The notes beneath the pieces were generated by a model, which saw only the letters and a program-made list of their open reading frames with translations, made no database searches and was not told the DNA's origin. Below, one piece after another: positions 35,961 through 57,717 of a stretch of DNA of 64,000 bases (the first letter of the stretch is position 1; every line of letters starts with the position of its first letter). This DNA comes from Corbicula japonica (Eukaryota; Mollusca; Bivalvia; Venerida; Cyrenidae), in the NCBI GenBank assembly GCA_038501625.1, contig JAZAYU010000254.1, forward strand, positions 666,217 to 730,216, given 5' to 3'. Made by a program: the position numbers and the translations under genes.

Positions 35961-35969
35961 ACCCACTTA

Positions 35970-36640: not shown

Positions 36641-36786
36641 TAAACATTACCGCATTTGACTGGTACATATAACTTTTATTTTCAGATAATTTATTAGAGA
36701 CATTCTGACTGATTGAGAATAAAAGAAACAATATTTTGTGAATATAAGTTATAAATGTATCGATTTTACAAGAATGTAAGTCTTAC

Positions 36787-36860
36787 CGTAAAATCATCCT
36801 TATTTGTTTCTTCTTGCTCTTTTAAAAACTTTACAATAGCGTCTTTGACATTGTCTGTAT
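36787..36860 (-). CDS. STING1-like: STING-like copy 2, exon 4
   Basis: Acceptor tctaatgttag and donor ACG|GTAAGA. Entry phase 1 and exit phase 0, as in the corresponding copy 1 exon (43943-44025). It encodes TDNVKDAIVKFLKEQEETNK and a few more residues, an amphipathic acidic/basic helix just after the ligand-binding fold. Copy 1 has NIPKEKEKIAERLLKYIKDD in the same place. No following TIR exon was found down to 33 kb, so copy 2 either ends soon after, uses an exon I missed, or is truncated. Confidence 0.6.
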
Positions 36861-37723
36861 CTAACATTAGAAACAAAAAAAAATATCAGTTAAAACCTTT
36901 AAATGCCGCTCGGTCGCTCTTGTTATATCTGATTTAGGTCTAAATGCATAATAAAGCTGGGTGCAGATACATCTGTCTATCCATTCTATCAAACAAATGA
37001 TAAAAAGAGTTGTTCAAGTTCATAACATGATACATTTCAAATACAAGACATCTCAATAAAGCGTCCCACCAATTGTTTTCTCGTTAAAAGCAAACGATTA
37101 TTTTATCTGGTGACCATACGCCAGTGAATAAGGAATAGTATTAATCTGGGAAAGTCGCAATGAAAGCTCCATTTTCACCGTCAATAGCATATCATAAGCG
37201 ATGAATCGCAATTGTACTGTTTATGAATGATTGTGGCTCTAGCTGGGAGCGAACCCAGAGTGTAAATATTGAGTTGCGCTGGTTACGCGGCGTGGGCAGT
37301 TATATGCATTTTCATTACTGCCCATGTACGTGCTAAATCAAACAAAAGCTGCAATACTTTTATGGGTCGAGCTTGGTGTCTTTAACAGTTTCCTCCTCGT
37401 CTATATCTATTCTCTTAGTCAATAATTGTTTCAGAGTCGGTTCATTTGAATTGCATATGATGTTCACATTTACTTAATTAAAACATACAGCGGCTGCATT
37501 TTAAATTACGAAGAAGAAGCTTGACTGAATTTACAATTAACATTTTCATTCTGGAGTTAAAGTTAATGCGTGATTACCTTAACATTGACTCAATTGAAGA
37601 AACAGCTACTAGATAAAGATAACATACGAGAATTACTAATTAAAACTTATTGAAGAAATTACAATCCAAATAAAATATTTTCAGTATACGAAATCCGACT
37701 AAAACAGATATGTTTTAATATAC

Positions 37724-37913
37724 CATCAATTTCGAGAACCTGTACTTTTCCGCGCAGCACTTTACTGCTTTCGATTAACTGCTTTGTGAGTTCAATAAAT
37801 CCTTTCACTTCTTCTTCCAATTTTTTTTCCGTCCAGTGAGCCGGAGCTTCTTCCCGTATGCATTGTAGACAAATGACTGGATTAGGGTATTCTGCCATAA
37901 TCAAGTATTCTTT
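37724..37913 (-). CDS. STING1-like: STING-like copy 2, exon 3
   Basis: Acceptor tttatttggcggcag; donor GATG|GTATAT; phases 0 and 1. The peptide starts KEYLIMAEYPNPVICLQCI, aligned with the strand and turn holding EYATPL in vertebrate STING. It continues with WTEKKLEEEVKGFIELTKQL, the long helix, and KVQVLEID, the last strand. It corresponds to two exons of copy 1 (48558-48653 and 46764-46854), with one codon more in total. The Glu of AEYPNP is the equivalent of human Glu260, by eye. Confidence 0.75.
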
Positions 37914-38400
37914 CTGCCGCCAAATAAAAAAAAATTAAACTGTAGTAGAATACCGCCTGAAACATTCAATTACTTAAACAGATGAAGGAATGAGTTCCAC
38001 ATCAAACAAGCTAGTGACACTTTGCCTAATTTGGACAATTAACTATGGAAGTCCAATACCATACCAAAAGTATTAGAAAACAATAGGCGAAAACTTGCAT
38101 ATTACTCTTAATATATATCGTTTGAATTTAAAAAAATTAGAAAAGTTTGATGATGAAAATGTATCATTGTTTCAAGATGAAGAACGACACTATTGATTTG
38201 AATGAAATTTTATGATATATTCTATAAAAATGATTAATTTATATTATATTTTGATCATACTCTTGATCATACTATTGCTATTTCAATGTTCAAAATTGTA
38301 CTGGTATTTCTTGAAAATGTAAAAATAATGATATGTTGTATCTTCTGTCAACAAAATTTACCTGAAATAAAAATAATGTAAAAAAGCAAGAAGAGATGCG

Positions 38401-38745
38401 CATATCGTAGTCTTGTTCCGGCCAGGCCCTTTCATACAGAGGTATGGTCCTTGATAAGTTATGCAGTATGCATATAGAGCATTATTCCGCGCTATTTCTC
38501 TGAAACTACTGAATGGATTTCAACGGAGCTTTTTGGAAATCATAAATACCAATGGTATACGTGCATATCATCGTTCTGGTCAGACCATTTAACACAGGGT
38601 TATGGCCCTTGATAAATTATGTATTGTGCATGTAAAGTAATATTCGTTTCCGCGCTATTTTTCGGTAACTGCTTTCATTTCAACAAGATTTTACGAGAAC
38701 CATCAATAAGAAAAGGAGATTTGCATCTCACAGACATGAACCGAT
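38401..38745. repeat. Two tandem units of about 162 bp
   Basis: Units start catatcgtagtcttgttccg (38401) and catatcatcgttctggtcag (38564). Both contain ccgcgctatttctc/ttcgg and an atggtccttgataa-like segment. A third start appears near 38724. Non-coding, within copy 2 intron 2. Confidence 0.75.
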
Positions 38746-39039
38746 TATACTATTTATCATTGATTTATGACTGAACAGTTATTATGTGCAAAAACACTTT
38801 TAGTACTAGTTATATGCATTTTTTGCAACAACTGACCGAAATTAAGCCTTTTAATGTAACTCGTGAATTTTCTCATCAAAAACTGGTTTTACATTGTAAG
38901 AAATACCTGGCCATGAAGAATAAACAGGATATATAAGTGAAAAAAACTGTACCTTAAACTTTCTTCCATTAGTTCATTACATTATTATTTAATTTAGTAA
39001 ACAGTTACAAGCCCACATTTGTAATCTTACCCATACGTC

Positions 39040-39150
39040 GAGTATAACCACATCAAATGTGATACTCTATCGCTTGAGCTAGCCAGAACAACCCCATGAA
39101 ATGTTGTGCAGATAACCCTTTGGATAATAGTGATATCTTATACTCGTTTT
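39040..39150 (-). repeat. SINE fragment disrupting a TIR exon
   Basis: Minus-strand gttgttctggctagctcaag carries the A-box-like core of the SINE at 26346-26480. It joins directly onto the TIR exon stub. Confidence 0.5.
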
Positions 39151-39151
39151 G

Positions 39152-39256
39152 TACCTTATTCTCATTTTGTTTCAGAAGATCTTTCGACTTCTGCTCTTGC
39201 TTTTGGTCTTCAGGAATGTCTTTCGTGTTGTCTACTAACACACCTTCTGGAATGTC
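39152..39256 (-). pseudogene. Truncated TIR exon stub inside STING copy 2
   Basis: Acceptor tttttcgctgtag, then DIPEGVLVDNTKDIPEDQKQ and a segment ending KDLLKQNENKV. This is clearly homologous to the start of the copy 1 TIR exon (DKPKSVFVDYTKGIPEDEKE). About 50 bases of upstream intron match too (compare 39257-39305 with 42124-42175), so the duplication included intron sequence. After about 35 codons the homology ends in SINE-like DNA. The remaining TIR core (strands C-E) is missing. It follows exon 2 in matching phase 0, so a transcript skipping exons 3-4 could in principle end here. Confidence 0.7.
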
Positions 39257-39421
39257 CTACAGCGAAAAATTACAGTTAAAACAGGTGTTCAGTATCTATT
39301 CTAAAATCACATGACGCCGTTAACCGAATGTATACCAGTGCTACTGTGAATTGTAGATAATTATAAGCCCACACAGAGACAATAAAAATGCAAGAAAACT
39401 GGCAGATTTAATAACATTTAC

Positions 39422-39675
39422 CTTTTGAGGATTTGTGTTTTCTGTAACTTTGTAAGGTATAAGCTGATATTTCCGACATTCCATGCCACTAACATTTTCT
39501 TCTTCGTAATCGGGTTTTAGAGCTTCGAATCCTGCAATCTTTTCCCCTGTTTCACTTTTTTCTAGAACGTTCAATCGTTTTTGTACAAACAACTTTGGCA
39601 CAACGATGAGTAGCTTTTTATAAAGTTTACTCTCTTTATTCTTCAAATGTATACGTTTCATTCTTTCACCCGCAT
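39422..39675 (-). CDS. STING1-like: STING-like copy 2, exon 2
   Basis: Acceptor ttttgtgtcgttgcag; donor AAG|GTAAAT; phases 1 and 0; 254 bp. It encodes (D)AGERMKRIHLKNKESKLYKK, LLIVVP, then the pocket segment GMECRKYQLIPYKVTENTNP. This covers the central sheet of the STING domain. Its length equals exactly the sum of copy 1 exons 2 and 3 (146+108). The Arg and Tyr of CRKY align with human Arg238 and Tyr240, which contact cGAMP. Confidence 0.75.
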
Positions 39676-40600
39676 CTGCAACGACACAAAATAAAACGAT
39701 GCATTTAGTACTTGAAAATTATCAGTTAAAATTCGTTAAATTTAGTTTTGAAATTTTTTAGCAAGTCAGCAAATCGATAAGAAATTATCAGAAACACATA
39801 TGAAATGATAAGCGTCATAATTGAAAGTCAGCCCCGAAAAGCAATAAAATCAAATAGTTTTTTATGAGCTTTTAAAGAGAAGAAGTAGACAATCCAATTT
39901 AAAGTCCCTAAAATTCAACCAGTTTCAGAAAATTCAACCAACAAACGTTTAACTTAATATTAACATCAGAAAAAGTCACACGCAAAACAAAAACCCTAGC
40001 CTCATGACTCAGCAAAACTGAAGTGAGAATGAGAGAGTATTAATGTATAACACTATAGACAAGCAACTTAAAACAAGTCCACAAACAATAAACACAAAAT
40101 TATCGCATTGGAAAAGAAAGTAGCAGAACCTCTTTTATACTTGTGGTTTAAGCCTGGTTAGTTTGAACAACCTCACACTTTACTCAATAGGCTTTTAAGT
40201 AAAATGTTAAAAATCACGGTTCATTAACTTGGAATATTAACTGCAACCGACCAACCTACTTGACAATAATGCAAACCAAATAACACAGAAGTATCCAATT
40301 GACATTGTCAACTAAAACTGGCGAGAACTCGAGAACCTTCTAGAGACGAAGTACACAGATTTAATATGTATATTTAACATTTCAATGACAATGGAACTTA
40401 CAATAGTTTTTTCATATCGATAAAGTGATTGACCATGATATTAATTAAATTAAACTTCTCAACGAAAAAGCAAATAACAACAACTGTTATAATACAGCTC
40501 CCTTAATAATAATTATAATCATAATATTTCCCACATTAAATGGTTTCTTCAATGTATATGTCTGCAATGAGTTTACACGACAGTGAATGTTTTTGGTTAC
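39676..40600. other. STING copy 2 intron 1
   Basis: GT-AG intron (donor GTAACC, acceptor TTGCAG). AT-rich, with no element recognised except faint PLE-tail-like words near 40080-40350. Confidence 0.6.
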
Positions 40601-40690
40601 CTTTCAAATTTGTCTCTAGGTAGTTGTAAACATATGCATATGCAAGTCCTGTTTTCGCAGTATCTGGTATGTCACTATCACGGTGTCCAT
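40601..40690 (-). CDS. STING1-like: STING-like copy 2, exon 1 (helix 1 exon)
   Basis: Acceptor attttctcacag; donor AAAG|GTAACC; phases 1 and 1, identical to the corresponding copy 1 exon. It encodes GHRDSDIPDTAKTGLAYAYV, then YNYLETNLK. The segment TGLAYAYVYNYLETNL matches the first helix of the STING ligand-binding domain. The Tyr corresponding to human Tyr167 is kept, while the Trp and Gly of the usual motif are replaced by Tyr and Asn. The upstream coding exon is not identified. Confidence 0.7.
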
Positions 40691-41139
40691 CTGTGAGAAA
40701 ATCATAAGAACAAGATTTTATACATTGATGTTAAAAGTAACTTATAATATGTTTGTTTGACCAACTTCCGCACATTTTAACAACATTTCCTGACTTGAGC
40801 ATTGCAGCTACTGTTATCTCTTTATATCTTTATGCGATATTTGACTGCATTGTTTACAGCATACACATTAAATTTTGCAATTCTTGAAACACAATGGATT
40901 TGCATTAAGCTGCCCTTGCACCAGGTACAAATCCCTAGTTTTGTCGGTATTGCTTATATTTTTATGATTACTTGTTCATGTACTACCGTAATTATTGCGT
41001 TTAATGGATTCCGTGTTAAAACGTACCGCATGCGATATCCCTACCTGACGAAATGCTATCAATTTACTGCACATGCTGTTATTGGACTTCATATTCAATA
41101 TCTTTAAATGCGACGAGTTTTTTGCTGAGTTTTGTTAAG

Positions 41140-41452
41140 CCGAAAAGTGGGTTGGAGTTTTTCCACCAAGACAACTTGTACTTGTTGTTTCTTATGAGAA
41201 CCTGTTGGGGCAAGTGTGAGGTTGGTGCACCCTAGAACGTGGTTTAAACCCCCAGTGGCAATTTGATTTGCCACTGACTGTTCCAAGGCAGTGACCCCTC
41301 GGGTTCTCATTTGTGTTTATTGTTAGTGGTGTCTTTTTTTTAAACTGATTATTTTATTAACCATGCTCTCTCCCCTTCTCTCCTTCTTGACTGTGTGGGA
41401 GGCTGTTTTTCTGAATATGGCGATTCCTGATATGCATATTTCACCTTTTTTT
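41140..41452 (+). repeat. PLE 3' tail, well preserved
   Basis: Runs from gggttggagtttttccacca through the cagtggcaatttgatttgcc hairpin to gatatgcatatttcacctt. It lies between STING copies 1 and 2, opposite in strand to both. Confidence 0.8.
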
Positions 41453-41495
41453 AATATGGTTATAAGTTCAAAGTACATGTACCGCATTTGTTGTA

Positions 41496-41501
41496 TTTAT
41501 T
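41496..41501 (-). terminator. Possible polyadenylation signal AATAAA
   Basis: On the minus strand AATAAA lies about 230 bases after the TGA stop of STING copy 1. It is consistent with a short 3' untranslated region; not proven. Confidence 0.3.
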
Positions 41502-41730
41502 GTCCGAAATGAATTCCACATGTTCGTCGATAGTTTATGACACGTAAAGCAGAAACAATATTGAATTGCAGCCATGCATAGCATAATGTTAATATGAACA
41601 CAATTATATAAACATTGAATATAAATAACCCATCAACAAATTGGTGGGTATAGAGAAACATAACGTAAAGTAATTGCAATATAATTAGGTAAATTGAAGA
41701 GAATTTCGCCTTGTGAATTGTTGTTTTCGT

Positions 41731-42123
41731 TCAGAAAAATATACTGAAATATACTGTACGTTTTACTTCTTGCAAAAGACTTTCCAAGAATTTGTCTTGT
41801 TTACACCGTAGGAATGTGTGTGGATGAATTCGTAGCTCGTAAGTCAAATCTTCTTCTGTAAGATCATCCGTACAAACAACTATGAGCGTAGCATGATTCT
41901 GCAACCTCTCTTTTAGATCTTCTTTTCTCGCATATTTTTGTTCGCGTTTCTCTAAAGATTGCCTGGACACAACGAGCACCATACACTGGGTTTCATATAT
42001 ACCGGGATCGTCATTGAGAACATTATACTCATTTTGTTCCAGAAGTTTTTTCAACTTCTGCGCCTCCTTTTCGTCTTCAGGAATACCTTTCGTGTAGTCT
42101 ACAAACACACTTTTTGGCTTGTC
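41731..42123 (-). CDS. STING1-like: STING-like copy 1, exon 7: C-terminal TIR domain
   Basis: Acceptor taatttttcgttgtag; phase 0; 130 codons then TGA. TIR features in order: SVFVDYTK (strand A), EDEKEAQKLKKLLEQ (helix A), YNVLNDDPGI (strand B and a BB-loop-like DPG), CMVLVVSRQSLE (strand C and following turn), ATLIVVCTDDLTEEDL (strand D), FLRCKQDKFLESLLQEVKR (C-terminal box). It is shorter and more diverged than Toll-like receptor TIRs. I cannot assign a catalytic Glu, so signalling versus NADase activity is open. TIR-linked STING proteins are known from oyster and from bacteria. Alternative donors near the end could splice past the stop. Confidence 0.75.
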   Translation of the reverse strand, partial: DKPKSVFVDYTKGIPEDEKEAQKLKKLLEQNEYNVLNDDPGIYETQCMVLVVSRQSLEKREQKYARKEDLKERLQNHATLIVVCTDDLTEEDLTYELRIHPHTFLRCKQDKFLESLLQEVKRTVYFSIFF

Positions 42124-42987
42124 CTACAACGAAAAATTACATTTAAGACAGGTGTTCAATGTCAATTCAAAAACCATACATAATGAATATTTCCGTTACT
42201 TTAAATTCAAATAAAGTGAATTTTAACCCATGTAATTTGCTAATGAGAAATGTCCAAACAACCTTTCCACAATCAAAGAGTCGAGAAGAAAAATAGAACA
42301 TCTTGATTATGTACGATGCTTATTTCAAAAAGACACCTCATACGATTAACAAAATAAAAAAAAACTGAATGATATGCTGACAGTATGTTTTGGTATCAAA
42401 CATATTTCGTCAAATGAATAGAACAAAATTGATCATTGCTTTCCATCATAAGGAAATAAGTTAAAACCATTCACATAACTTAACTTAGAATTGATTTGTT
42501 AATCAAAATTATCATCAACGACCGTGACAAATAAACGGTTATGGTCACAGGGAAGACTTCCAATGAGCGAGTAAGAAAAACGAAGTATATTCAATATGAA
42601 ACACATACTAATGGGTATTTGTTTTATTTTTAGCAACTGCTTCAAATAGCACATTTAAGTAAGAATTGTCTTTGTTATTCTAGTAATTTAATTCGTTTGT
42701 GTAAAGAAAAGAAATGCCGTTTAGATAGATAAAAAGATACCCGAATACGAAGAAAAAAAGTTTAAATGTCTCCGTTTATGACAAATATTGCAATTAATAA
42801 GACTGAGCCTGTGAATGAACCACACAAATATATTTATCGTGCTCAACGACCTTCAAAGGCGAGAATTTCATTAAAGAATAAATGTAAGGGCAACTTTTTT
42901 CAGCTTCCAGGCGACACAAACAACGCACCTTTGCAAGTCACAGAAATGCTGAGTACTTAAAAAAAACTTCCAATTGTGGAGAAAAAA

Positions 42988-43845
42988 AAATGAAATATGC
43001 ATATCAGGAATGGCCACATCCAGCATACACAGCCTCCCCACACAGCCAAAAAGTAGAGAGGAAAAGAGAGCATGGTATTACAAAAATCAGTTTCAAAATG
43101 GACGCCACAAACAAATAACGGAAGTGAGAACCGGATGGGTTACCGCCTTGGAACGGTCAGTGGCAAAACAAATTGCCACTGGGGGTTTAAACCAGGTTCT
43201 AGGGTGCACCAACCTCACACTTGCCCCAACAGGTTCTCGTATCACAAAACAAGTACAAATTGTCTTGGTGAAATAACTCCAACCCACCCATCAGCTCAAC
43301 AATGTTGCATGCAAAAGCATACAAACATATAAACATAAGAATTTAATAGCATTGCAAAGCCAAAGGGCGGGTACTCAATGATCTTACAGAGACCAGAGCA
43401 CCTGGAGTAAAATCAGCAAGAACACGATGACAGGGATAAAAGAAACAAATCGAGCTTCTAGGTTCTTTTTAGAAAAGATTTCCCCATAAACTTTCATAAA
43501 CTCTTAAACCCCTGCCACCGTCGTGCAACCAAAGAGGTAAGCATAATGATCAACTGTAGATGGGTTAATCACCAGGCCTGCAGAGCGCTGTAAAACATCA
43601 TGTTGGTAACCTTTCTTTTTAAATTTACAGATGGTTTTTACGAATAACCGGGAGAAATTAACATCGCCTTTTATCTTCTTAAGTTTATAAATTAAATCTC
43701 CATAAAAAACTGGCTGTGAAATACCTTGTTGCAACAGTGATTTTAAACTGCACCTGTATTTATTAATTAGATCTGGATATCGGCGATAAAACTTGCAAAA
43801 GGTTTTCCTTAATTTGTGATACCTATAACCTTGTGAGAGAGAAAA
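42988..43845 (-). mobile_element. Penelope-like element, 5'-truncated, in STING intron 6
   Basis: 3' terminus at 42988 (atgaaatatgcatatcagga on the plus strand), full tail with the 22-base hairpin at 43160-43181, then the C-terminal part of the reverse transcriptase up to about 43845. It ends only about 100 bases from STING exon 6. Confidence 0.8.
43504..43838 (-). pseudogene. PLE reverse transcriptase C-terminal fragment
   Basis: The open part reads QQGISQPVFYGDLIYKLKKI, NFSRLFVKTICKFKKKGYQH and VINPSTVDHYAYLFG to a stop. It is the same protein tail as at 27945-28270 and at 54396-54700, with a handful of differences. A 5' truncation removes all catalytic motifs. Confidence 0.75.
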
Positions 43846-43942
43846 TAACGTTTCTCTTATATTTACTCGATCATTAAAAGCATACGCTCTTAAATAACTC
43901 GGAATAATGAAGCGATAATCCGGTATACAAGAAATAAGGTAC

Positions 43943-44025
43943 CATTATTTCAACTTCGCCGCTATCGTCCTTGATGTATTTTAGAAGTCTCTCAGCAATT
44001 TTTTCTTTTTCTTTTGGAATGTTTT
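43943..44025 (-). CDS. STING1-like: STING-like copy 1, exon 6 (linker helix)
   Basis: Acceptor ttcaattttccag; donor ATG|GTACCT; phases 1 and 0. It encodes (E)NIPKEKEKIAERLLKYIKDD, then SGEVEIM, a charged helix between the end of the STING fold and the TIR exon. Copy 2 has an equivalent exon at 36787-36860 with the same phases. Confidence 0.65.
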
Positions 44026-44029
44026 CTGG

Positions 44030-44775
44030 AAAATTGAAGAAAAATTAGATTATCGATACTTATACATTAATTAATGCCAAGGCGCGTTCTTCAATTCGAA
44101 TATGAGAATAATATAGAATAAAATAAAATATTTAAATACATTTTATACAGGTTTTATACATGTTTTGAAGGGTGTTTTGATCAATAAATTAAATGTGGTA
44201 GGTAATTCTATGCAGCTATAGACACTAATTATGCGTTAAATTTGTACAACATCTGGTATTTAACGGTGAGAAATATTAAAATTTGCTTGTTTGTAAAATA
44301 TGTTCAGAGACTTGTTTGTTAAAACCTTTGACTAAACAACTTTCTTGTAGGTTTGAAATTGTGTCTTTGATTAAACTTTGTTTCAGTTAGATGATGTATT
44401 TCTTTTATTTCATAAACGATGTCATTTTTATTTTCATTGTTTTTTTCACATTACATGTAGTTGTTGTTTTTTTTCACATCAGTAAACATACGCATATACA
44501 ATTTTGAGTGACAACGTTTTGAAAACGGGTTAAAGTGTGGGTATATGACGACATAACGAAACGGTTAACACACGTTTTGCCCCCAAATCCAATTTTCTCG
44601 CAAACACATGCAAATTGTGTAATAAAAACATAAAAATAATAAAAAATACCAGTAAAAGATAAATATATACGAATATTTTTACTCTGGCTTCGCTACTAGT
44701 GATTTTTTATATTTTGTTCATTAAACGTAAAGTGCTTATAGCAAACAAATACATATCAAGTGGTAGACATTCGTT
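44030..44775. other. AT-rich intron sequence
   Basis: Part of STING copy 1 intron 5. No repeat or exon recognised. Confidence 0.5.
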
Positions 44776-45300
44776 TCGTTTTCGTTTCGTTTATTTGGCA
44801 ACTCGGCATAAACAATGCCTATGGCCATTTACAATTAGGAAAACAAAATATGACCACGGCATACATTGAAAATACAGAAATGATCAAAATACATATAAAT
44901 TTCACATAGAGAAAGAGACATGGTATAATACATACAAACATACAGTATAACTCACGTCATTTTAAAGTTGTGATTCTGTTTTCTCTTTTCAAAAATGCAT
45001 ACTTTAGTTTTGTTTACATTAATTTTAAGTCCTCATTTTTCAGAATAATTATAAATACAGTTTAACTGAGATTGCAAACTTTCTGGATTCGTCGTGAAAA
45101 GAGCAATATCATCAGCAAAAAGTAAGAGATACATAGACAAATATTCAAGATCATTTTCGGTTAAGGTACTAATATCAATCGACTGTTTAATGTAATTAAT
45201 AAAAAGAATAAACAGGATTGGCGAAAGTGGCTCTCCCTGTTTCAAACCTACTGATACATCAAAGAACTCTGAGATTAACATATTAGATGACAGTTTAACG
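44776..45300 (-). mobile_element. 5'-truncated non-LTR retrotransposon (LINE)
   Basis: The minus strand carries VGLKQGEPLSPILFILFIN (RT motif B region), YLLLFADDIALF (motif C, ADD), then NYSEK, a stop, and GLKINVNKTKVCIF (the thumb segment that follows in LINE RTs). The 3' end reads atgccgagttgccaaataaa followed by cgaaacgaaaacgaaacg, an AATAAA plus a short repeat tail. The body upstream of motif B is missing, as expected for 5' truncation. It belongs among CR1/Jockey/RTE-like groups; finer placement needs a tree. Confidence 0.8.
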
Positions 45301-45689
45301 CATGACTTAACAACCGCATAAATTTATGTGTGGGATAGTAAGACTTGTTGTTTGCGATATAATTTTCAACAAAATTATTGTCTTTCTTTTACAGCTGAAA
45401 AAAGGAACTTTGTTATGTTATTAGTTATTAGTTAAATTGTCCAGATTAAGTTGACTGTTCAATATATTTTAAAAAGAAAGAACAAAACTTGTATTCTTTT
45501 TCATAAACATGCAGGACTAGTAGGGCATTTCCAAGATAAAATAAGGACAATTATGAGTTCAACAAGTTGTAGGGAAATGTAAAAAAAGACGCTTTAAACA
45601 CTCACTTGTTTTTTTTTCTTTTAATTACGTTTATCTCTATAAAAGAACGTGTAAATTAATTCAGATAGATAAAAGGCGAACTTTGAAAG

Positions 45690-45835
45690 CTACCGAACAC
45701 GACAAATATGAAAATACTGCAGGCTCGGTTTTATTTAGCCTGTTCATGAGCAGTAATGGAAATGCATATTACTGCCCACGCCGCCTAGCCTCGGGTTGCG
45801 CGCAACTCAATATTCCCACCAAAACAGTATAATTT
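45690..45835 (-). repeat. Dispersed GAGCCTGCAG repeat
   Basis: Reverse complement of the repeat at 13271, plus the actgcccacgccgcctagcc flank. Confidence 0.6.
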
Positions 45836-46204
45836 TGATCCATCCTACACGATGATATGCATATGGCGGTGAACGTGGAACCTTAAATGCTGTATTTTCA
45901 GATAAATACCATTCCATGTTCAGCGGCGTATGGTGCCCAGATAAAAAAATGGGTTTGACCTAAACGGGAAAACAATGGGCGGAACTAAACATAAAATAAT
46001 TAGGAGAGGGTATCTGAGAATATAAATCCTGCATATGACAAACAACGCCAACAGCAAAATTCTAAAAAGCAGGAAGTATTGGGGTGATTGAACAATATCA
46101 GAATATAAAACTTGCCGAAATACTTGAACATAAGTAATTTAAGAAGTACTAGTGACATACAACATAAGTATCGTTTGACGACCTTCAAAGGACGTAACCG
46201 ATAA

Positions 46205-46440
46205 CAGCACTGATTGAATATATGGGGAGACTTTTCACAGCCGCCACACGGCACAAACGACGCTACTGTGATATTTAAATAGATATAAAGGGAACTTTGA
46301 AAGCCACCAAACACGACAAATTTAATAAAAGTGCAGGCTCGGTTTGACTGAATCTGTTCATTGACATTAATGGAAATGGTTATGGCAATGGAAATGCATA
46401 TTACTGCCCAGGCCGCATAGCCCCTGGTTGAGCGCAACTC
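46205..46440 (-). repeat. Dispersed GAGCCTGCAG repeat with spacer unit
   Basis: Contains aactttgaaagccaccaaac, gcaggctcggtttgactgaa, and the ggggagacttttcacagccg word also found at 35660 and 26540. Confidence 0.55.
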
Positions 46441-46448
46441 AAATATAG

Positions 46449-46733
46449 AGACCGTCTCCCTGGCCTAGTGGTTAAGGCATCCGCCTTGGGAGCGGGAGGT
46501 CGAAGGTTTGAATCCCACCAGGAGTTCGTTCTGATATGGCCGGTTGGTGAGCCGCCAGTTAGTTAAAGAATGGTTACCGTATGCCTACCTGCCTGGTGCC
46601 TGGCATTAAAAGGATAGGATTCGGGAGGTACAAGTGCAATAGAAAAAGGTGTCTCATAAGTCAGAAATGGCTGGCCCTTTCAATAGGGGTGACACTATAA
46701 TAAACAAACACTTTACCTTTATAGAGATCAATC
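46449..46733 (+). mobile_element. tRNA-derived SINE, complete
   Basis: The A box TGGCCTAGTGG (46461-46471) and B box GGTTTGAATCC (46505-46515) form the Pol III promoter in a tRNA-like head. A body of about 180 bp follows (gtgagccgccagttag ... atggctggccctttcaat), ending cactataataaacaaacac. The tRNA-like part does not fold well enough to be a functional tRNA. Located in STING copy 1 intron 5. Confidence 0.75.
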
Positions 46734-46763
46734 GATCCGCATAATTTTACAAAAGAAGAATAC

Positions 46764-46854
46764 CTGGCACGGGAATCATTCTAAAGACATTTCTAGACTC
46801 CTGGTCCTCTAGACGATAGACGATATTTCTTAAGGCGTCCATATATCTTTCAAC
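46764..46854 (-). CDS. STING1-like: STING-like copy 1, exon 5 (long helix and last strand)
   Basis: Acceptor attcattatcacag; donor CCAG|GTATTC; phases 0 and 1. It encodes VERYMDALRNIVYRLEDQES, then RNVFRMIPVP. This matches the human STING segment QAKLFCRTLEDILADAPES followed by NNCRLI: same spacing of the amphipathic helix, acidic turn and closing strand. With the previous exon it equals copy 2 exon 3, short of one codon. Confidence 0.75.
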
Positions 46855-46902
46855 CTGTGATAATGAATACCGGACGTTCTTAATATATTGAACAACTGTG
46901 AA

Positions 46903-47090
46903 ATATGCATAAAAATGGCCACACTCATAAAATAATAAATTAAAAAAAAACACAAACATTGAACGAATATTTAGAAATCGAGAGGATACCGCTTTAAATC
47001 GGTCCCTGACAAAACATTTTGCCACTGGAGATTTAAACCAGGTTATATGGTGAACCAACCTCACTTTTGCGCCGAAAATAAGGTCAGAAG
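46903..47090 (-). repeat. PLE 3' tail, diverged
   Basis: Plus strand gtgaaatatgcataaaaatg, then a degraded copy up to gaaccaacctcacttttgcg, just upstream of exon 5 within intron 4. Confidence 0.6.
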
Positions 47091-47094
47091 ACAT

Positions 47095-48555: not shown

Positions 48556-48557
48556 AC

Positions 48558-48653
48558 TTCTTTTTCCCGATCGGTTTTGTTTATAATTCCTTTATCTTCC
48601 AAAATTCCCAAAATAGTGAATGAGTGTGGTATTTGCACAACAAAGTAATATGT
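48558..48653 (-). CDS. STING1-like: STING-like copy 1, exon 4
   Basis: Acceptor ctttgtatttttcag; donor GAA|GTAAGT; phase 0 at both ends. It encodes TYYFVVQIPHSFTILGILED, then KGIINKTDREKE. It aligns with human TCVLEYATPLQTLFAMSQ and the GFSREDRLE segment. The pocket residues differ: the position of Glu260 is Gln and that of Thr263 is His (alignment by eye). This would be expected to change ligand preference or affinity. Confidence 0.75.
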
Positions 48654-48688
48654 CTGAAAAATACAAAGAACATATAACAAATACATAC

Positions 48689-48783
48689 TTGTAAGCTCTT
48701 TTCGATATCATATCCTGAACAAGAAACGTTGTAAGTAAGAGCTCGTTTTATTATGCCTTTTAATTGGTCACATGTTTTCAACT
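48689..48783 (-). CDS. Candidate extra exon of the STING copy 1 locus
   Basis: Acceptor acatatatatgcag; donor TTACAA|GTATGT; entry phase 1, exit phase 0. It encodes ELKTCDQLKGIIKRALTYNV, then SCSGYDIEKSLQ. The open frame continues upstream through the acceptor (RIYVLITIENGEKAHIYA), so it may start further 5'. It can splice to exon 4 (phase 0) but not from exon 3 (phase 0 into phase 1). The direct exon 3 to exon 4 join gives normal STING homology. It could therefore be an alternative first coding exon or belong to another gene. I do not recognise the peptide. Confidence 0.35.
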
Positions 48784-49080
48784 CTGCATATATATGTGCC
48801 TTTTCCCCATTTTCAATTGTAATTAAAACGTATATTCTCTTTTTTTACACATTGCTGTGATAACGTAAAATGAAGACTGTATTCCGAATGCAACTTCTTT
48901 GGACTATTTCAGGAAAGCAAGACGGTGTTACGTAGTAACCGACCCACATCGAATAATGTCTTCATTTTTATTTAGAAAAAGTCCACTTTCTATAAAATAC
49001 TGACCCTCCTTATAAAAATAACGACCCCGAATCGTTATTAAAATATTGACCCCAACATACCGATTTCTAAAATAATATAC

Positions 49081-51073
49081 ACAGTGTCTAAGCGTACAGT
49101 TAACCGAAACGGAAGTTGCTGATCTGTACGCCGATGATCACATAGTTGCTTACAGAAAAACACGCGACATCGACTTTTTATTTGTAAAATATATTCAAAT
49201 TAAACGTGCATTTTGCAGAAATAATTGTTATATAAGTACATCGTTGATTAATAGTCTTACTGTGATCTTGAAGTCTTGAACTAACGGCTCGTTAAGTGGC
49301 AATCTGTAATCTTTTCACACGTGATCAGTACAAAATGGGGAAAAAGAGTGGAGAAAATTTGCATTTGTGACCTCATATTTTATAATGTACATATTGGAAA
49401 GGTATATATTTGACTTCCCGTGAAAGAAAAATCATGTCCAACGCTCACAAAATGCGTTGAACGGTGCTTGAACGAATTAGCAACGAGAAAATGGTCTTTC
49501 TGTGCAGCAACCGAAAGTTACAAGACTGTACGCAAAGTTGCAGTACCTCAATGTCAGACTGTACGAACAGTTGCGATCATAAGTGCATCATATACTGATC
49601 AACTGAAAAGCATCAATGAAGCAAGAACTTGTAAAATGAATCAATCAAAGGAATCAACCAAATCTAATGTATTATTTATCAAAAATAAAACCTTATATGA
49701 TCACATTTTAGAGCTGACAAGCAAGTTTTGAGCTATAAATTAATAGGTTTTTTACTCTGATTTACCATATGAACGAATTGGTACACTTTGCAAATAAGAC
49801 ACCGATAATTGCTAGAAATCCTAAATCCCCTGAGTGTGACATTAAATAAAACCTAGTATAAACCTGCTGAAATCCCCGCCGGTGTTGGCAAAAATATACA
49901 TTATGCACAAATATTATCCAATATCATAAAGACTTTAACAATCCGGTCTTTGACAGGAAAATTCCATTAAGTGGTTTCAGATTTTGAAATTCACCACTTC
50001 GTGACTGAGATAAGTAAGTCTACAATTACGTCTGCAACTGCTAAGAATTTCATGTTTAAGGTCGTTAAAATGTCGAGTTGGATTTCATTTTGGCCGACTT
50101 TCATTGGTAGAATTCAGGGATTATGTTAATTTGCTTGGAGCATTCTATGAAATCTTTAGAAGCTATGGTTGAAGTACTAACGCGTATTTGTCCAGCTACA
50201 TTATGACTTCTACAGTTTGCACTTCAGAGAAGAAATGAAAACATTACAGTGGGCCTCTACATATCTTACACGGTCTTACCATTGATATAGCTCGGTTGGT
50301 CTATAGTCGTTTTTTCACGCCTCCTTTCATGAAAAGCTAACAAGAGATTTAAAAACAAATCTGACTTTGAAACAAGCCAAGATCAGTTATTTGTTTATAC
50401 AATTGTATTATTAAAAGAATGAGCAACTTTGTTGAAAAAAAAGCATTTTTCAGGTTCCTGTGCAAGAATTATTAAGGTTAACTGAAGCTAAAATGATAAC
50501 CTGTCGATATAATCAGAAAAGTATCAACTGGAACCAAACATTGTTAATGATCTGTTTGACAACTCTGCGTACAGATGTTAGGCATCTGTTAACAACTAAC
50601 GATCGCGTACAGTTGCAACTATGCGTACAGTCTTATCATTTACAGTGACATAAAGAAAGTATCATTTTCTCGTTGCGAAGTCGTTCAAACTCAGGTCAAC
50701 GAAGTACACAAGTTGAAAAAATAAATTTTCTCCCACACCAATACAAATATGGTTCAAAATCTATTTACACAAAGAAATTTGAACCCAAAACGTCTCGTTT
50801 TGTTCAATGTTTTGCTCCTATTTTGTCTGATCGAGTTGGGAACGATGATGGATTATAACAATACTAACCCTTCTTTTAAGTCTATATGATCACAGCAGGG
50901 CTAACAATTAACGTTGTACTTACCACAGAAATATTTTTTCCAAATGCACATTAAATTTGGTTTATTTACCAATAAATAATTCGATGTCGCAGGTTTTTCT
51001 GTAAGCAACTATGTGATCATCGGCGTACAGATCAGCAACTTCCGTTTCGGTTAACTGTACGCTTAGACACTGT
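49081..51073. mobile_element. Foldback element with about 100-bp near-identical ends
   Basis: acagtgtctaagcgtacagt at 49081 and its complement ending at 51073 head inverted repeats of about 105 bp with only a few differences. Further inverted similarity occurs inside: caacgagaaaatg and gactgtacgcaaagttgca at 49475-49545, against 50580-50690. There is no transposase, and no clear target duplication. The small open frames inside (49420-49731, 50460-50860) mostly follow the inverted repeat and look non-coding. In STING copy 1 intron 3. Confidence 0.75.
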
Positions 51074-51430
51074 GATAAACATCTATTCAAGTCATTGCTT
51101 ATATTTATTGAGGTTGCTATTATATTTTTGCCTCCGCTGTGTCTAAGGCTGACACAATAGAACACAAGCTGACACTCTGCTCAGAAGTTAGCGTATATAT
51201 ATTTAAAATAAATTATATTATTCAAAGTTTGCTAAGCACCAAGTTTTCCGCATACAATCTCGAATTCTACATCATATGAACATATTTTATTTACTTTGTG
51301 AATCGTGTAGTAATTAAGAGTGTTTCTTGCGTATCCATTACATTGAATTACGAGCGATTTCTACTTGCAAGTAGTGCAAACAAGGTGACCCCGTATTTCC
51401 ATAGTCACTGTTTATTTGACAGAGCATCCA

Positions 51431-51975
51431 TGTATCGACACGTATACAGTGTTCATTCTTTGCTTTCTATTGCAGTTGGTATGGTGGAGCAAGGGGCCCG
51501 TCATCGTGAGGTTGGTGAGATGTTTGGTATGGACCATACAGTTGTCCCCCGAGCCTGGGCGAGGTTCCAACAGTATAACCGATAAGACGACATGGTGGAT
51601 GCACATGAAGGGTGACTACTAAGGTTGAGGATCGGTTTTGGTCATCCAGGCATGAAAACACCGTTATGCAACTGCAACCCAACTTCGCTTTGACCTTCAA
51701 AATGCTTCCGAGGTGCGAGTATCAACACAAACCACACGCATAACATTACATTAAAGTGGTCTGCGATACAAGACTATGTATACGTAAATAGCTGTCTCGA
51801 GATCACTTCCGGCTCCGATATGATTGGGCCATGGACCTTGTTGTTTGGAGCAGGATGAACTAGTGGCATTCACCGATGATTCTAGATATTGCCTAGTCTT
51901 CATGTATGAGCGTACTATAGTATGGCGAAGGCCAGGGGAACGACACCATGCAATATTGCTGAATGCGACCAATCG
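51431..51975 (+). pseudogene. Tc1/mariner-like transposase relic
   Basis: The N-terminal helix-turn-helix is readable: AVGMVEQGARHREVGEMFGM, then DHTVVPRAWARFQQYN. This matches Tc1-like GM-x-x-x-G-x-x-x-REVA-x-x-FGV-x-x-x-TV-x-R-x-W-x-R-FQ. After several frame changes and stops, LVVWSRM and then FTDDSRYCLVF and TIVWRRPGERHH give the DDE-domain block with the second Asp (usually FTDESRF...VWRRPGER). The segment after this is lost. In the intron between STING exons 3 and 4, opposite strand. Confidence 0.75.
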
Positions 51976-52129
51976 TTAATTGGTTCATTTTAAAGGTTTA
52001 TTTTATGGACTGGCCGGCATAGTCCCCTGACTGAAGCTAATATTCGGCATACAACCTAATATTCGTACAAAAATATTCTTGGTGCTTAAAAACTTATAGT
52101 AGTGTATAAATTGAATATGTGTTATGCCA

Positions 52130-52250
52130 GTGTGAGATAGAAATATATTTCACCGAGTGTGCTACGAAATTCGTATTTTCACGATTGGCGAAGCGACGGG
52201 TGAATATTAATAATTCAATATGTCACGAGTGAAATATATTTCTATCTTTC
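52130..52250. repeat. Inverted repeat, gatagaaatatatttcac type
   Basis: gatagaaatatatttcac at about 52136-52153 and its complement gtgaaatatatttctatc at about 52228-52245 flank 75 bases with acgaaattcgtattttcacg. Probably a MITE core. Confidence 0.6.
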
Positions 52251-52699
52251 AATTGTAAAAAAAATTATGCTTTAAAATAATGCACAATTAGCGTTAATTT
52301 GACATAACAATTGCACGAAATGTGGCCAAAAAGGTTTGTTTACATGACGCTACGTCATGACGTCATAAACTCAAATTTGAACCCGTTTTCTAAACGTTTT
52401 CATTCGTTATATTGTGTACGTTTGGGTGTCATCGTCAATAAAACAGTGAAAATAAAAAAGAAATTTCACTGAAAACAGTGGAATACCACTTTTATTTCAC
52501 ATACAAATTCTATAATTCACTGGAAAGCATAAAATAAAAAAATTATTTGTATTTGAATAATCATTATTGTACTTAAAGTATCAATAATTACATCAATATC
52601 AGAACAGAAAGTATAAATATTTACAAAAATATAAGAACAGAAATCGTTCTCAGGTTAGAGAGCTACAGCAATCCAGGATGATTTGGTTTTGTTAAGCAA

Positions 52700-53245
52700 A
52701 ACTGTAAAATGCGTATCACGAACTGCCACATCCAGGCGACACAGCCTCTCTACGCAGCAAAGATGAAGAGAGGAACAGAGACTTCATACTTTATAAAATC
52801 ATTGGTTAAAACAACACCACAAACAGTAAATAAAAATGAGAACCCGATGGGTTACTGCCTTGAAACGGTCAAGGGCAAATCAAATCCTCACTGGGGGTTT
52901 AAACCAGGTTCTGGGGTTCAGCAACCTCACAATTGCCTCAACAGGTTCTCATATCATCACTTAGATACACGTTGTCTTGGTGAAATAACTCCAACCCACC
53001 CATCATCTCAACAATGTTGCATGCAAATGCACACAAACATATAAAACATAAAAAGTTAATAATTGCAAAGGGGCGGGTACTCAATGATCTTACCAAGGAC
53101 AGAGCTCCTGTAGTACAATCAGCAAGAACCAGCGGGTTACCGCCTTGGAACGTTCAAAAGCAAAACATTTGCCACTGGGGGTTAGAACCAGGTTCTATGG
53201 TGCACCTACTTTACACTTGCCCCAACATAATCTCATACATACAAA
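52700..53245 (-). repeat. PLE 3' tails, two in series
   Basis: A long tail from aaatgcgtatcacgaactgc to about 53120 (ending in the agcaagaac words). It is followed immediately by the middle part of another tail (gcgggttaccgccttggaac to about 53235). Just downstream of STING exon 3 in intron 3. Confidence 0.7.
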
Positions 53246-53310
53246 CAAAGGGGTTCTTTGAAAATAGAAAGGAATAACGAGAATACCGACCAAGAAAAGT
53301 TCAACCATAC

Positions 53311-53418
53311 CTGTACCGTTTTAGGATCAGTAATGGTGTATACTGTAACCTCGTGTTCTCTCCCTTCAAAACTTCCATGATCAGCTTTAATGGGAAGGAT
53401 CGTTCTGTGGTCTTTCGG
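53311..53418 (-). CDS. STING1-like: STING-like copy 1, exon 3
   Basis: Acceptor ttttatttgtcaaag; donor CAG|GTATGG; phase 0 at both ends. It encodes PKDHRTILPIKADHGSFEGR, then EHEVTVYTITDPKTVQ. Aligned with copy 2 and human STING, the Arg of EGREH falls at Arg238, but the Tyr240 position is His. The pyrimidine tract of the acceptor is weak, but exact phase and length agreement with copy 2 exon 2 supports it. Confidence 0.65.
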
Positions 53419-53878
53419 CTTTGACAAATAAAAAGTTTATTGTTCACTTAATATATAATTCGATCAATTATGATAAAGCGAAAGTAAGAAATAAAAACAA
53501 TATAATAAATTAAACAGTCTAAATATAAGAAAATCGTTGGAGTACATGTATGATTTTAGTTGTCATTTTGATTTGGTTATTTCCTTTTTGTAATTCGTTG
53601 CACTAATTTTGCAAACAAACCAGAATCATTCCCAATAAATTAGTATTAACGTAAAAAAATCGGTTATAGGTTTCATACAATGATTGTCACACTCATCAGC
53701 ATTTAGTTGCTCAATGAATAGCCACCTTCAAGCAAACGTCCTAGCTTTTTAAGAGACGTCTACAGTCATCATTGCAAAGAGTGATATTGTTACTGCACAC
53801 ACTCTACAAATTACAAAATTTATAATCAGTACTGAGCCGAAACAATACAAAGTACCTACTATGTATTGGCTGCCTAAA

Positions 53879-54950
53879 AAGGTGAAATATGCATATCAGG
53901 AATCGCCACATTCAGAAAAAACAGCCTCCCCACACAGTCAAAAAGAAGAGAGGGAGAGCACATGGTTAATAAAATGATCAGTTTCAAAAGAGACACCACT
54001 AACAATTAACAAAAATGAGAACCCGAGGGGTTACCGCCTTCGAACAGTCAGTGGCAAATCAAATTGCCACTGGGGGTTTAAACCAGGTTCTAGGGTGCAA
54101 CAACCTCACACTTGCCTAAACAGATTATCATATCACAATACAAATACAAGTTGTCTTGGTGAAACAACTCCAACCCACTTATTGGCTCAACAATTTTGCA
54201 TGCAAAAGCACACAAACATATAAAACATAAGAATCTAATAGCATTGAAAAGCCAAAGGGCGGGTACTCAATGATCTTACCGAGACTAGAGCTCCTGGAGT
54301 AAAATCAGCAAGAACACGATGCCAGGAATAAAAGAAACAAATCGAGCTTCTAGGTTCTTTTAAGAAAAGATTTCCCCATATACCTTCATAAACTCTTAAG
54401 CCCCTGCCACCGTCTTGCAACCAAAGAGGTAAGCATAATGATCAACTGTAGAAGGGTTAATCACAAGGCATGCAGAGCGCTGTAAAATATCATGTTCGTA
54501 ACCTTTCTTTTTAAATTTACAGATGGTTTTTACGAATAACCGGGAGAAATTAACATTGCCCTTTATCTTCTTAAGTTTATAAATTAAATCTCCATAAAAA
54601 ACTGGCTGTGAAATACCTTGTTGCAATAGTGATTTTAAACTGCACCTGTATTTATGAATTAGATCTGGGTATCGACGATAAAACTTGCAAAATGTTTTCC
54701 TTAATTTGTGATACCGATAACCTTGTTTTAAAAGTTTTTTCTGTAATGCAAAGATTACGTTCATTGAAATCATTAATATCGTTGCAAGCTCTTGAAAAGC
54801 GAACAAGCTGTGAAATATAAACCCCGTAAGAGTATATTAAAATTAAAATCATCTCTTTTATCATATATTTTAGTAGTGACATAACCATTTTCAAATGACA
54901 GATTTAGATCGAGAAAGTTTGCTTGTATTTTTTGAAGTGTAAAAATGCAT
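53879..54950 (-). mobile_element. Penelope-like element, minus-strand member of a head-to-head pair
   Basis: 3' terminus at 53879 (aggtgaaatatgcatatcag on the plus strand), tail to about 54395, then reverse transcriptase relic 54396-54950. The RT retains CKFYRRYPDLIHKYRCSLKS and the FLDLNLSFENG block in two frames. A deletion removes the KRDDFNF-to-YGVYISQ junction. Confidence 0.75.
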
Positions 54951-54954
54951 AAAA

Positions 54955-56170
54955 CACGTTTACTAGAGAAAATAAAACCTTCATCGCTTGTAATTAACAT
55001 AAGGCATTTTTACAGATGGTTCTTTTGATAAATATACTTTACAAACTTGCCAAGACCTAATAGAGTCGCTATCTTTCTTACTTGATAATATTTATGTTAT
55101 GTTATATTTATGTTAGATTTAGTACCTCTATTTATAAACAAGCAATAGGCATAACAAATGGTATTAATTAAAAAGAATTGTTTCAATTTTAATATAGTAA
55201 ATTTTCCGTTTTTAGACGGAGATGTTCGTCGTGCAACCTCTATCGGGTTTATATCTCACAGCTTGTTCGCTTTTTAAGAGCTGACAATAATGTGAATGAT
55301 TTCAATGAACGTAAGTTTTACATAACAGAAAAAAAAACTTGTAAAACAAGGTTATCGGTATCACAAATTAAGAAACACCTTTTGCAAGTTTTATCGCCGT
55401 TATCCAGATATAATTCAAAAATACAGGTGCAGTTTAAATTCAATATTGCAACCTTGTATTTCACAGCCAATTTTTCTGGAGATTTAACTTCTAAACTTCA
55501 GAAGATAAAAGACAATGTTATATCCCGGTTATTCGTAAATTCGTATGTAAATTTAAAAAAAAAGGTACCAACATGATATTCTAAAGCGTTCTGAAGGCCT
55601 GGTGATTAACCCATCTAAAATTGATCATTATGCTTATCTCTTTGGTTGCAGGACCGTGGCAGGGGTTTAAAATTTTTACGAAGGTTTATGGGGAAATCTT
55701 GTATAAGAATCTAGAAGCTCGATTTTTTTTTCTTTTATCCCTGTCCTGATTTTACTCCAGGAGCTCTGGTCTCGGTAAAATCATTGAGTACCCGCCCCTT
55801 TGGCTTTGCAATGCTATTAGCTTCTTATGATGTTTGTATGCTTTTCCATGCAACATTGTTGAGCTGATGGGTGGGTTGGAGCTATTTCACCAAGACAACT
55901 TGTACTTGTGTGTTGTTATGAGAGCCTGTTGGAGGCAAGTGTGAAGTTGGTGCACCCTAGAACCTGGTTTTAACCCACAATGGCAATTTATATTGCCGCT
56001 AACCGTTCCAAGGCGGTTACCCCACGGGTTCTCAGTTTTGTTAATTGTTTGTGGTGTCATTTTGAAACTGATCATTTTATTAACCATGCTCTCTCCCTAC
56101 CTCTTCTTCTTGACTGTGTGGGGAGGCTGTTTTTTTCTGAATCTGGCAATTCCTGATATGCATTTTTCAC
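54955..56170 (+). mobile_element. Penelope-like element, plus-strand member of the pair
   Basis: Begins with the FTDGSFDKYTLQTCQDLIES region of the reverse transcriptase (about 55008). It has an internal deletion near 55165, continues with NDFNERKFYITEK and the FSGDLTSKLQKIKD region, reaches its stop near 55670, and carries a complete tail ending gatatgcatttttcacctt at about 56173. Its 5' side meets the 5' side of the minus-strand copy at about 54950. Confidence 0.75.
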
Positions 56171-56174
56171 CTTT

Positions 56175-56312
56175 TCGTTTATTAATTGAATTGTGGCGTC
56201 TTATTTGAATTGACATACTTATAACAAACATGCTTTCTTTTCCTTTCTTCTTTTTTGCTGCGTGGGGAGGCTGTGTTTTGTGAGTGTGGCGATTCCTGAT
56301 TTGATTTCACTT
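56175..56312 (+). repeat. PLE 3' tail terminus, second copy
   Basis: Runs from cgtttattaattgaattgtg to gcgattcctgatttgatttc, directly after the previous tail and in the same orientation. Confidence 0.65.
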
Positions 56313-56805
56313 TTTTATTATTATGTTGTGCAAAATTTGGCACATAAGCCGTCATTTTCTTTTCTTAAATAATTTTTCAAACCTATATATTTCAGGTTAA
56401 AAAAATAACTTACGTCTCGTTGCTGCATCGGCAAATTTCACACTTATCTGTTGTCATATTTTAAAGTACCTTATTAACTAACTATTTTAAAATATTCGGC
56501 TATCAATATACAATAAGGGTACGAGTGTAGTCAACTTTTAACTTTGCGGCCTTCACTGAACATTAATATAAAGCTCACAAATAAGTCTTATAATAAATTC
56601 TTTTAGATTTTATCTTTATCTTTAAAGTAAGATATGTTGTTTTTTCTTACATTGTGTTGAGCTTTCTTATGTTAATTGTTTGTTTGTGAAAATTTTGAAT
56701 TTGGTATATAACTATTTATCTTCTCTTAGGTCTCTTTTAAAGGCTTTCAGAGGACTTTGGATTTTCTGCTAATTGTATTACGAGATATAAACTTAAAGTA
56801 CATAC

Positions 56806-56951
56806 CCAAAAGTAGTACTCCGCTGGTAGTTTAAAATCCGACAATCTTTCCACTGACTTTGCATTATAAGGAAATATGTTAAACTCCTTAAGTGGAAAAT
56901 AGTTTTCATTGCCTTTATAGAGCTGGCTTTGTTTTATTTTTCCTACTAGCT
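56806..56951 (-). CDS. STING1-like: STING-like copy 1, exon 2
   Basis: Acceptor attattttctttcag; donor TGG|GTATGT; phases 1 and 0; 146 bp. It encodes (E)LVGKIKQSQLYKGNENYFPL, then KEFNIFPYNAKSVERLSDF and ends LPAEYYFW. Joined to exon 1 it gives RIVLRELVGKIK, aligning with human RLILPELQARIR, which confirms the splice. FNIFPYNAKSVERL takes the place of the YILLPLDCGVPDNL strand. Confidence 0.75.
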
Positions 56952-57615
56952 CTGAAAGAAAATAATAAATTTTCAACGAAGATCGCTTTTGCACAAATTC
57001 TGGCAGCTAGCAAGAAGTTTTAAAGGGGTTTTGTGACAGTTAAGCATTTCTTCATCATCAGTTATAAATTATCCATCTTGAACCTGATCTGCTAAGCAAC
57101 TCCTCAGATAAATTGACTCAAAGCAATATCAAACCTATCAACAACTAACCCCGGGGCAAAGCGTCTCAGACGTATGTGAAACACACTAGCCGGTAATAAT
57201 TTAGATCAAAAATTCCTTTTGTCAATGCTTTATTAAGGAACAGTTTTGCAATTGTAGTGCATCTTAGTCATATAGCTATAGTCTGATGAAACTATCTAGC
57301 ATTAATCTTATTTGCTTAGCATCTCCTCAGAACAGACTTGACTAAGTCACGTCACCGTCTTGGTTCAAGGAAACAACCCAGTCGCTGATTGATGATTGTA
57401 AAGCAAAGAATAAGTCGTGTAGAACTTTTTAAGTATTGTTATTTTTAATGATTATTGTTTACAAGTAAACAATCGATTTTACGCAAATAGCGAACAAAAA
57501 CGATGTAATAAACCATGACTGAGCGTTGAATTAACATGTTGTGACCTCACAACATAAGTTGTTTATAACTGCAATAAAAGACTTTAACTAAATTTAAATA
57601 ATTGAAAGGAATTGC

Positions 57616-57717
57616 CTCTAAGAACTATCCGTGTGTATCCTATATAATGGCTCCATGCCAGTCCTTCGGCTATATTACCGACTTGTGCAGACTGAATAGG
57701 AGTTGGCGCTGTACCAC
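57616..57717 (-). CDS. STING1-like: STING-like copy 1, exon 1 (helix 1 exon)
   Basis: Acceptor tttctttaatacag; phases 1 and 1. It encodes GTAPTPIQSAQVGNIAEGLA, then WSHYIGYTRIVLR. GNIAEGLAWSHYIGYTRIVL is an unmistakable match to the first helix of the STING ligand-binding domain (human NVAHGLAWSYYIGYLRLIL). It keeps Ser162, Tyr164, Gly166 and Tyr167 equivalents, with Tyr163 changed to His. The 3' splice donor must be GC (AGAG|GCAATT) to keep the frame with exon 2, so intron 1 is a GC-AG intron. The upstream exon is not found. Confidence 0.8.

Follow-up and report, generated by a model that had tools for sequence, protein, structure and literature searches.

Tandem STING-like modules in a Corbicula japonica contig, one of them joined to a C-terminal TIR-like exon

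Organization of the locus

The DNA described here is a 64-kb stretch (hereafter the window; 35.4% G+C) of contig JAZAYU010000254.1 from Corbicula japonica, and all coordinates refer to it. The window reads as animal-type DNA with introns. Its minus strand carries two adjacent sets of exons, designated modules A and B, each of which can be joined into a STING ligand-binding domain (Table 1). In module A, seven exons (A1-A7; 57717-41731) connect into one open frame of 338 residues plus stop, the STING domain being followed by a TIR-like exon. Beyond a gap of 1040 bases, four exons of module B (B1, B2, B4 and B5; 40690-36787) yield 202 residues in one frame without a stop and open at both ends. 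Both modules are thus incomplete within the window, A lacking its 5′ end and B lacking either end. The in-frame joining of the seven exons of module A, ending in the TIR-like exon and its stop, had been proposed in an earlier, sequence-only reading of this DNA, and its coordinates and joins proved right.

An AG acceptor precedes each of the 11 exons. The ten donors needed comprise nine GTs and one GC. Splice sites were scored with a generic matrix and ranked against 3202 AGs and 3475 GTs of the minus strand. Ten of the 11 acceptors fall within the top 7.0%, that of A1 being in the top 1.7%; the weakest belongs to A3 (top 12.2%), which has the best GT donor of the set (top 0.4%). Weighing against the proposed structure are the weak donors of A6 (top 11.1%) and B4 (top 17.4%) and the need for a GC donor at A1. 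At boundaries common to A and B the phases are identical (incoming 1; internal 1, 0 and 1; outgoing 0). The two modules had been said to have the same exon phases; this holds at the common boundaries and stops there, since introns A2/A3 and A4/A5 are present in A and not in B. The chance that random segments of the same lengths and frames all stay open, calculated as a product and uncorrected for freedom of exon choice, comes to 2.5e-8 in module A and to 3.3e-5 in module B. Exon A7 is open over 390 nt, a property found in 0.27% of random segments.

Table 1. Exons of modules A and B and the partial exon copy lying between B2 and B4.
Exon	Coordinates	Strand	Content	Basis
A1	57616..57717	-	Start of STING ligand-binding domain, GLAWSHYIGYTRIVLR	AG acceptor, GC donor, both boundaries in phase 1; STING_LBD from residue 14
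A2	56806..56951	-	STING domain	Join, Pfam, splice scores
A3	53311..53418	-	STING domain, carries conserved lid Arg (GREH)	Join, Pfam, pocket alignment; acceptor weakest of set
A4	48558..48653	-	STING domain	Join, Pfam, splice scores
A5	46764..46854	-	STING domain, VERYMDALRNIVYRL	Join, Pfam, splice scores
A6	43943..44025	-	End of STING domain	Weak donor of phase 0; join, Pfam
A7	41731..42123	-	Terminal exon, TIR-like domain, 130 codons + TGA	Join, TIR_2 match, controls
B1	40601..40690	-	Start of second STING domain, GLAYAYVYNYLETNLK	Phase 1 both sides; join, Pfam, splice scores
B2	39422..39675	-	Equivalent of A2+A3, conserved lid Arg and Tyr (CRKYQLIPY)	Join, Pfam, pocket alignment, P0001
B3	39155..39256	-	Partial copy of 5′ part of TIR exon, in B2/B4 intron	Phase 0-0, acceptor and weak donor
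B4	37724..37913	-	Equivalent of A4+A5, pocket segment AEYPNP	Join, Pfam, pocket alignment; weak donor
B5	36787..36860	-	End of second STING domain	Donor good, phase 0; join, Pfam

Both modules encode a STING ligand-binding domain

The joined products were compared with the Pfam STING_LBD profile (PF15009), for which the curated cut-off is 27 bits. Module A matches over residues 14-200 (E 2e-12, 47.3 bits) and module B over residues 13-187 (E 2.7e-13, 50.1 bits), both above the cut-off. STING chains also head the PDB sequence search; the best, 5cfp, was found at 2.2e-8 with the whole A product and at 7.2e-8 with B, and the second match of A is 6wt6 (3.5e-8), entitled "Metazoan TIR-STING fusion". 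We take the top PDB matches, 5cfp and its kin, 6wt6 and 8efn, to be of sea anemone, oyster and coral origin, respectively. Support was not obtained for the mollusc-specific character of the locus that the sequence-only reading proposed. The STING similarity of both joined products is far beyond chance. The Pfam profile search suggested by the sequence-only reading therefore bore out its two tandem STING ligand-binding domains; the same search left the TIR profile short of its cut-off (see below).

Further evidence comes from a public fragment, P0001 (147 residues, from a public contig of 950 bases), which agrees with B in 63 of 87 aligned residues (72% identity). The match spans exon B2, to within about 5 residues at its start and 2 at its end, and no similarity was reported beyond this span, as expected of intron sequence outside the exon. 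Taken alone, P0001 matches STING_LBD at 0.024, below the cut-off. A protein-database search with the joined A product returned nothing at E up to 1 among 3950 candidates. The sole match in PADLOC, a type I specificity subunit (0.0018, for B), was taken as chance.

The terminal exon of module A resembles a TIR domain

The A7 exon matches the Pfam TIR_2 profile over residues 6-97, covering positions 1-101 of the 122-position model, with E 1.7e-5 and 25.7 bits. None of ten controls (one reversed and nine shuffled versions of A7) gave a TIR match, the best value for any family being 0.055. On these grounds A7 is probably a TIR domain, if weakly shown. The TIR assignment made earlier is thus supported by the profile match and its controls and is weaker than had been claimed.

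Several results weigh against the assignment. The score of 25.7 bits lies below the curated TIR_2 cut-off of 28 bits, and within the whole 338-residue product the match falls to 2.5e-4 and 21.9 bits. A7 also weakly matches AAA_5 (0.0049, below the cut-off of that family). A PDB search with A7 returned no TIR structure; its two matches were RNA polymerase subunits, the best at 0.42. No TIR match appeared in NCBIfam or PADLOC, both of which are prokaryote-centred and miss the STING domains too. A search for relatives of A7 ended with none from 13 candidates, in a database that was equally blank for the whole A product. The AlphaFold model of A7 alone, built from the single sequence, was unusable (predicted local distance difference test, or pLDDT, 38). 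Finally, the second and third strands of A7 lie unusually close by eye.

These shortcomings would be accounted for if A7 were an unrelated, lineage-specific tail and A a STING protein with a novel C-terminal domain: the sub-threshold score, the lack of a TIR match in the PDB, the unusable fold and the missing relatives all point that way. We regard this as very unlikely, in view of a TIR_2 match that runs over most of the model and that none of the controls reproduced, and of the fact that TIR is already a known partner of STING (PMC10732462). Molluscs and other animals are described in PMC13142454 as having highly diverged, uncharacterized TIR clades, which would fit a weak profile match.

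Granting that A7 is a TIR domain, its activity may differ from that of enzymatic members. The usual Glu of the helix following the third strand, taken here as the catalytic NADase residue, aligns with Ala in A7; this call comes from an alignment to 6wt6 that scores -2.3 bits and proves nothing alone. A7 contains no Trp. The apparent substitution of the Glu, together with the close spacing of the strands, leads us to expect that A7 would not have NADase activity.

Probable assignment of the TIR-like exon to module A

The open frame continues from exon A6 into A7 across a phase-0 junction with an AG acceptor, and A7 closes with TGA. An AATAAA motif lies 230 nt past this stop; since AATAAA or ATTAAA occurs 2.8 times per kb on the minus strand, the motif lends only mild support. 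A different arrangement can be drawn in which A7 is spliced to B1, giving either one long STING-TIR-STING gene or a TIR-STING gene B with its TIR domain N-terminal, as in oyster. The modest gap between A7 and B1, the failure to find a convincing start exon for B within it, the oyster precedent for TIR before STING and the presence of two phase-1 GTs near the end of A7 all favor such a splice. Both of these GTs are poor: 34.2% of the GTs in the reference set score at least as well as AAC|GTACAG, and 61.3% at least as well as TCA|GTATAT, to be compared with the 11.1% (A6) and 17.4% (B4) of the weakest donors accepted here. With the in-frame A6/A7 junction and the stop of A7 added to this, the A7-to-B1 splice appears unlikely, and STING followed by TIR, with A7 belonging to A, is the better reading.

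The missing ends of both modules were sought within the window. Between A7 and B1, the only ATG-to-donor candidates were three (4, 11 and 14 codons, two of them with a common donor), none convincing. No start exon over the score limit was found before A1 (59300-57730), and two of the three minus frames over 58000-64000, upstream of A1, contained no domain family. Downstream of B5, X-masked translations of the three minus frames over approximately 21787-36786 matched no family; the scan was insensitive, as the positive control, A7 within 4999 residues, gave just 0.056. Minus-strand open frames of at least 70 residues below 36787 were also listed and inspected by eye, and none resembled a TIR. 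An upstream exon common to the two modules could exist, as phase 1 is required at A1 and at B1 alike.

Divergence of the two STING domains

The STING domains of A and B are approximately 19% identical (33/174 by BLASTP, E 0.067), a level at which any duplication would be old; the tandem copies are, by this measure, not recent. The sequence-only reading had described a locus that duplicated and diverged. The two tandem domains agree with that description, which must be qualified as to age: the sole recent duplication seen within the exons of the locus concerns 157 bp spanning the intron-exon border at which the TIR exon begins (see below).

Known STINGs have in common an aromatic pair and an Arg in the nucleotide pocket, according to PMC9980059; the pocket columns used here were assigned by our own alignment onto the residues given there. 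Both modules retain the helix-1 Tyr along with the lid Arg. They differ at the second stacking Tyr, which B keeps and A replaces by His, and at the Glu of the "EY" segment, which B shares with the two reference chains and which is Gln in A. B had been presented as the diverged copy. The comparison reverses this: with its slightly higher STING_LBD score and its larger number of retained pocket residues, B is, by these two measures, the better preserved putative receptor. Against a straightforward receptor role for A, the changed residues may mean loss of binding, so that A would have an altered ligand or none.

A partial copy of the TIR exon and the state of the modules

The intron between B2 and B4 contains a partial second TIR exon, B3 (39256-39155), that had been overlooked. 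It lies in an ungapped 157-bp match with 83% identity between 42176-42020 and 39309-39153, the copied piece spanning the end of the A6/A7 intron and the first 104 bases of A7. Inclusion of B3 in gene B was tried and rejected: it lowered the STING_LBD score from 50.1 to 39.6 bits, split into two stretches, and the best PDB match, at 7.2e-8 without B3, weakened to 7.8e-6. B3 is probably a relic. Changes between A7 and B3 (proportions of synonymous and nonsynonymous differences, pS 0.108 and pN 0.192) show no difference from neutral (P 0.34); positive selection, considered because pN exceeds pS, was dismissed as the excess lies within neutral drift.

That this copy of the TIR exon is broken, with differences compatible with neutral drift, raises the question of whether one or both modules are themselves pseudogenes or gene fragments, decaying in a transposon-rich stretch. 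The same suspicion is fed by the failure to find a 5′ exon for either module or a 3′ exon for B, by the GC donor of A1, by the changed nucleotide pocket of A and by the DIRS-type element upstream of A. Decay is hard to reconcile with 11 exons that hold one frame without a stop, with the length over which A7 remains open, and with the 72% identity of B2 to a public fragment whose similarity ends near the exon ends. The missing ends may lie beyond the window, and the X-masked scan was, as noted, insensitive. On this evidence we judge it improbable that the modules are pseudogenes.

A model for the locus

We consider it rather likely that the window contains part of an animal STING locus with two tandem receptor genes, or with two receptor modules of a single gene, in which A would combine STING with a C-terminal TIR-like docking tail and B would be a second STING. 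In such a locus, a cGAS-like enzyme would make a cyclic dinucleotide, which the STING domain, if transcribed and assembled as a dimer, would bind, stacking into higher-order assemblies. Stacking of module A products would cluster their TIR-like tails, and the clustered tails would serve to dock other TIR proteins instead of acting as an NAD-cleaving enzyme. Module B would contribute a second STING domain, anciently separated from the first, whose nucleotide pocket is better preserved.

As is predicted for module A, oyster TIR-STING (6wt6/6wt7) unites an animal STING ligand-binding domain and TIR in one protein, the one already listed as the second PDB match of A. We assume that these structures come from Crassostrea gigas. 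In the 6wt6 chain, which is 415 residues long, the match to STING sets in at residue 171, leaving room for TIR only before STING, whereas STING comes first in module A. By comparison with the oyster protein, the TIR-like domain of A is short and weak-scoring and may lack the usual Glu. The bacterial TIR-STING proteins (Sphingobacterium faecium and others), which belong to the cyclic oligonucleotide-based antiphage signaling system (CBASS), contain the same two domain types as are predicted for A. In these proteins TIR stands before STING. The order is thus reversed in A, where, in addition, NADase activity would not be expected; and both A and B match the animal STING_LBD profile, prok_STING being absent from the matches listed for A and below the cut-off for B (0.0081). 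The parallel drawn earlier with oyster and bacterial fusions consequently extends to the domains and not to their order. In the published model for the bacterial proteins, cyclic-dinucleotide-driven assembly controls TIR (PMC9402430). The transmembrane STING of animals has the helix-1 Tyr and lid Arg in common with A and B, and A differs from it by its TIR-like tail; no 5′ exon that might encode N-terminal transmembrane helices was found for either module in the window.

Eukaryotic TIR-STINGs are rare, and the oyster and bacterial fusions have been argued to be independent (PLoS Biol 2023, PMC10732462). In two reviews, "STING-TIR" refers to the oyster and bacterial proteins with the order unstated. 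The literature searched, coverage of which was partial, brought up no animal STING reported to have a TIR at its C-terminus. Very large sets of cGAS-like receptors can occur in bivalves, and C. virginica is reported to possess several STING genes (PMC9980059). In oyster, STING families are described as expanded by tandem duplication, with some STINGs lacking transmembrane parts or carrying TIR (PMC5869526); a tandem STING pair as such is therefore not new.

A TIR placed C-terminally on an animal STING, and probably lacking enzymatic activity, would, if true, represent one more independent joining of STING and TIR and would suggest that TIR clustering rather than NAD cleavage can be the output. 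A more speculative extension, which we put forward as doubtful, is that this joining is the third of independent origin and that one upstream exon is spliced either to the altered-pocket STING-TIR or to the plain, better kept STING, giving two outputs. Adjacent STINGs that are approximately 19% identical, the pocket being retained in one and altered in the other, would offer a place to test the division of ligands in animals that have several STINGs.

Repeats and other features of the window

A DIRS-type retrotransposon occupies 59416-63773 on the plus strand, upstream of A1. It matches reverse transcriptase (4e-9) and a phage-integrase-type recombinase (4.9e-7), with below-cut-off matches to RNase H (0.007) and Dam (0.01); a repeated end sequence can be seen by eye near 59.3 kb and 64.0 kb. 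Open frames at 28884-27948, related to the repeat family listed in the next paragraph, resemble a Penelope-type reverse transcriptase by eye and gave no Pfam match at 0.01 in the three frames tested. A plus-strand open frame at 14662-15021 contains a partial Fibrinogen_C domain (3.7e-13, residues 51-107) and possibly belongs to another immune-type gene; no additional match turned up in the following 3.3 kb, scanned as three X-masked plus frames. Tandem arrays are present at 20573-21308 (92-bp unit, 8 copies, 96% matches) and at 11608-12528 (72-bp unit, 13 copies, 86% matches).

Within the scanned interval 36000-58500, a repeat family occurs in both orientations in or beside introns (43076-43630, 53967-54522, 55332-56175, 41132-41400 and 36002-36641). 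The A5/A6 intron contains a plus-strand tRNA match at 46459-46523 (35.4 bits, against a gathering score of 29), which probably forms the head of a short repeat derived from a tRNA; another tRNA match lies at 3625-3691 (36.5 bits). In the A3/A4 intron, inverted repeat arms of 124 nt (49080-49203 and 50951-51074), 90% complementary and 1747 nt apart, possibly mark a small DNA transposon.

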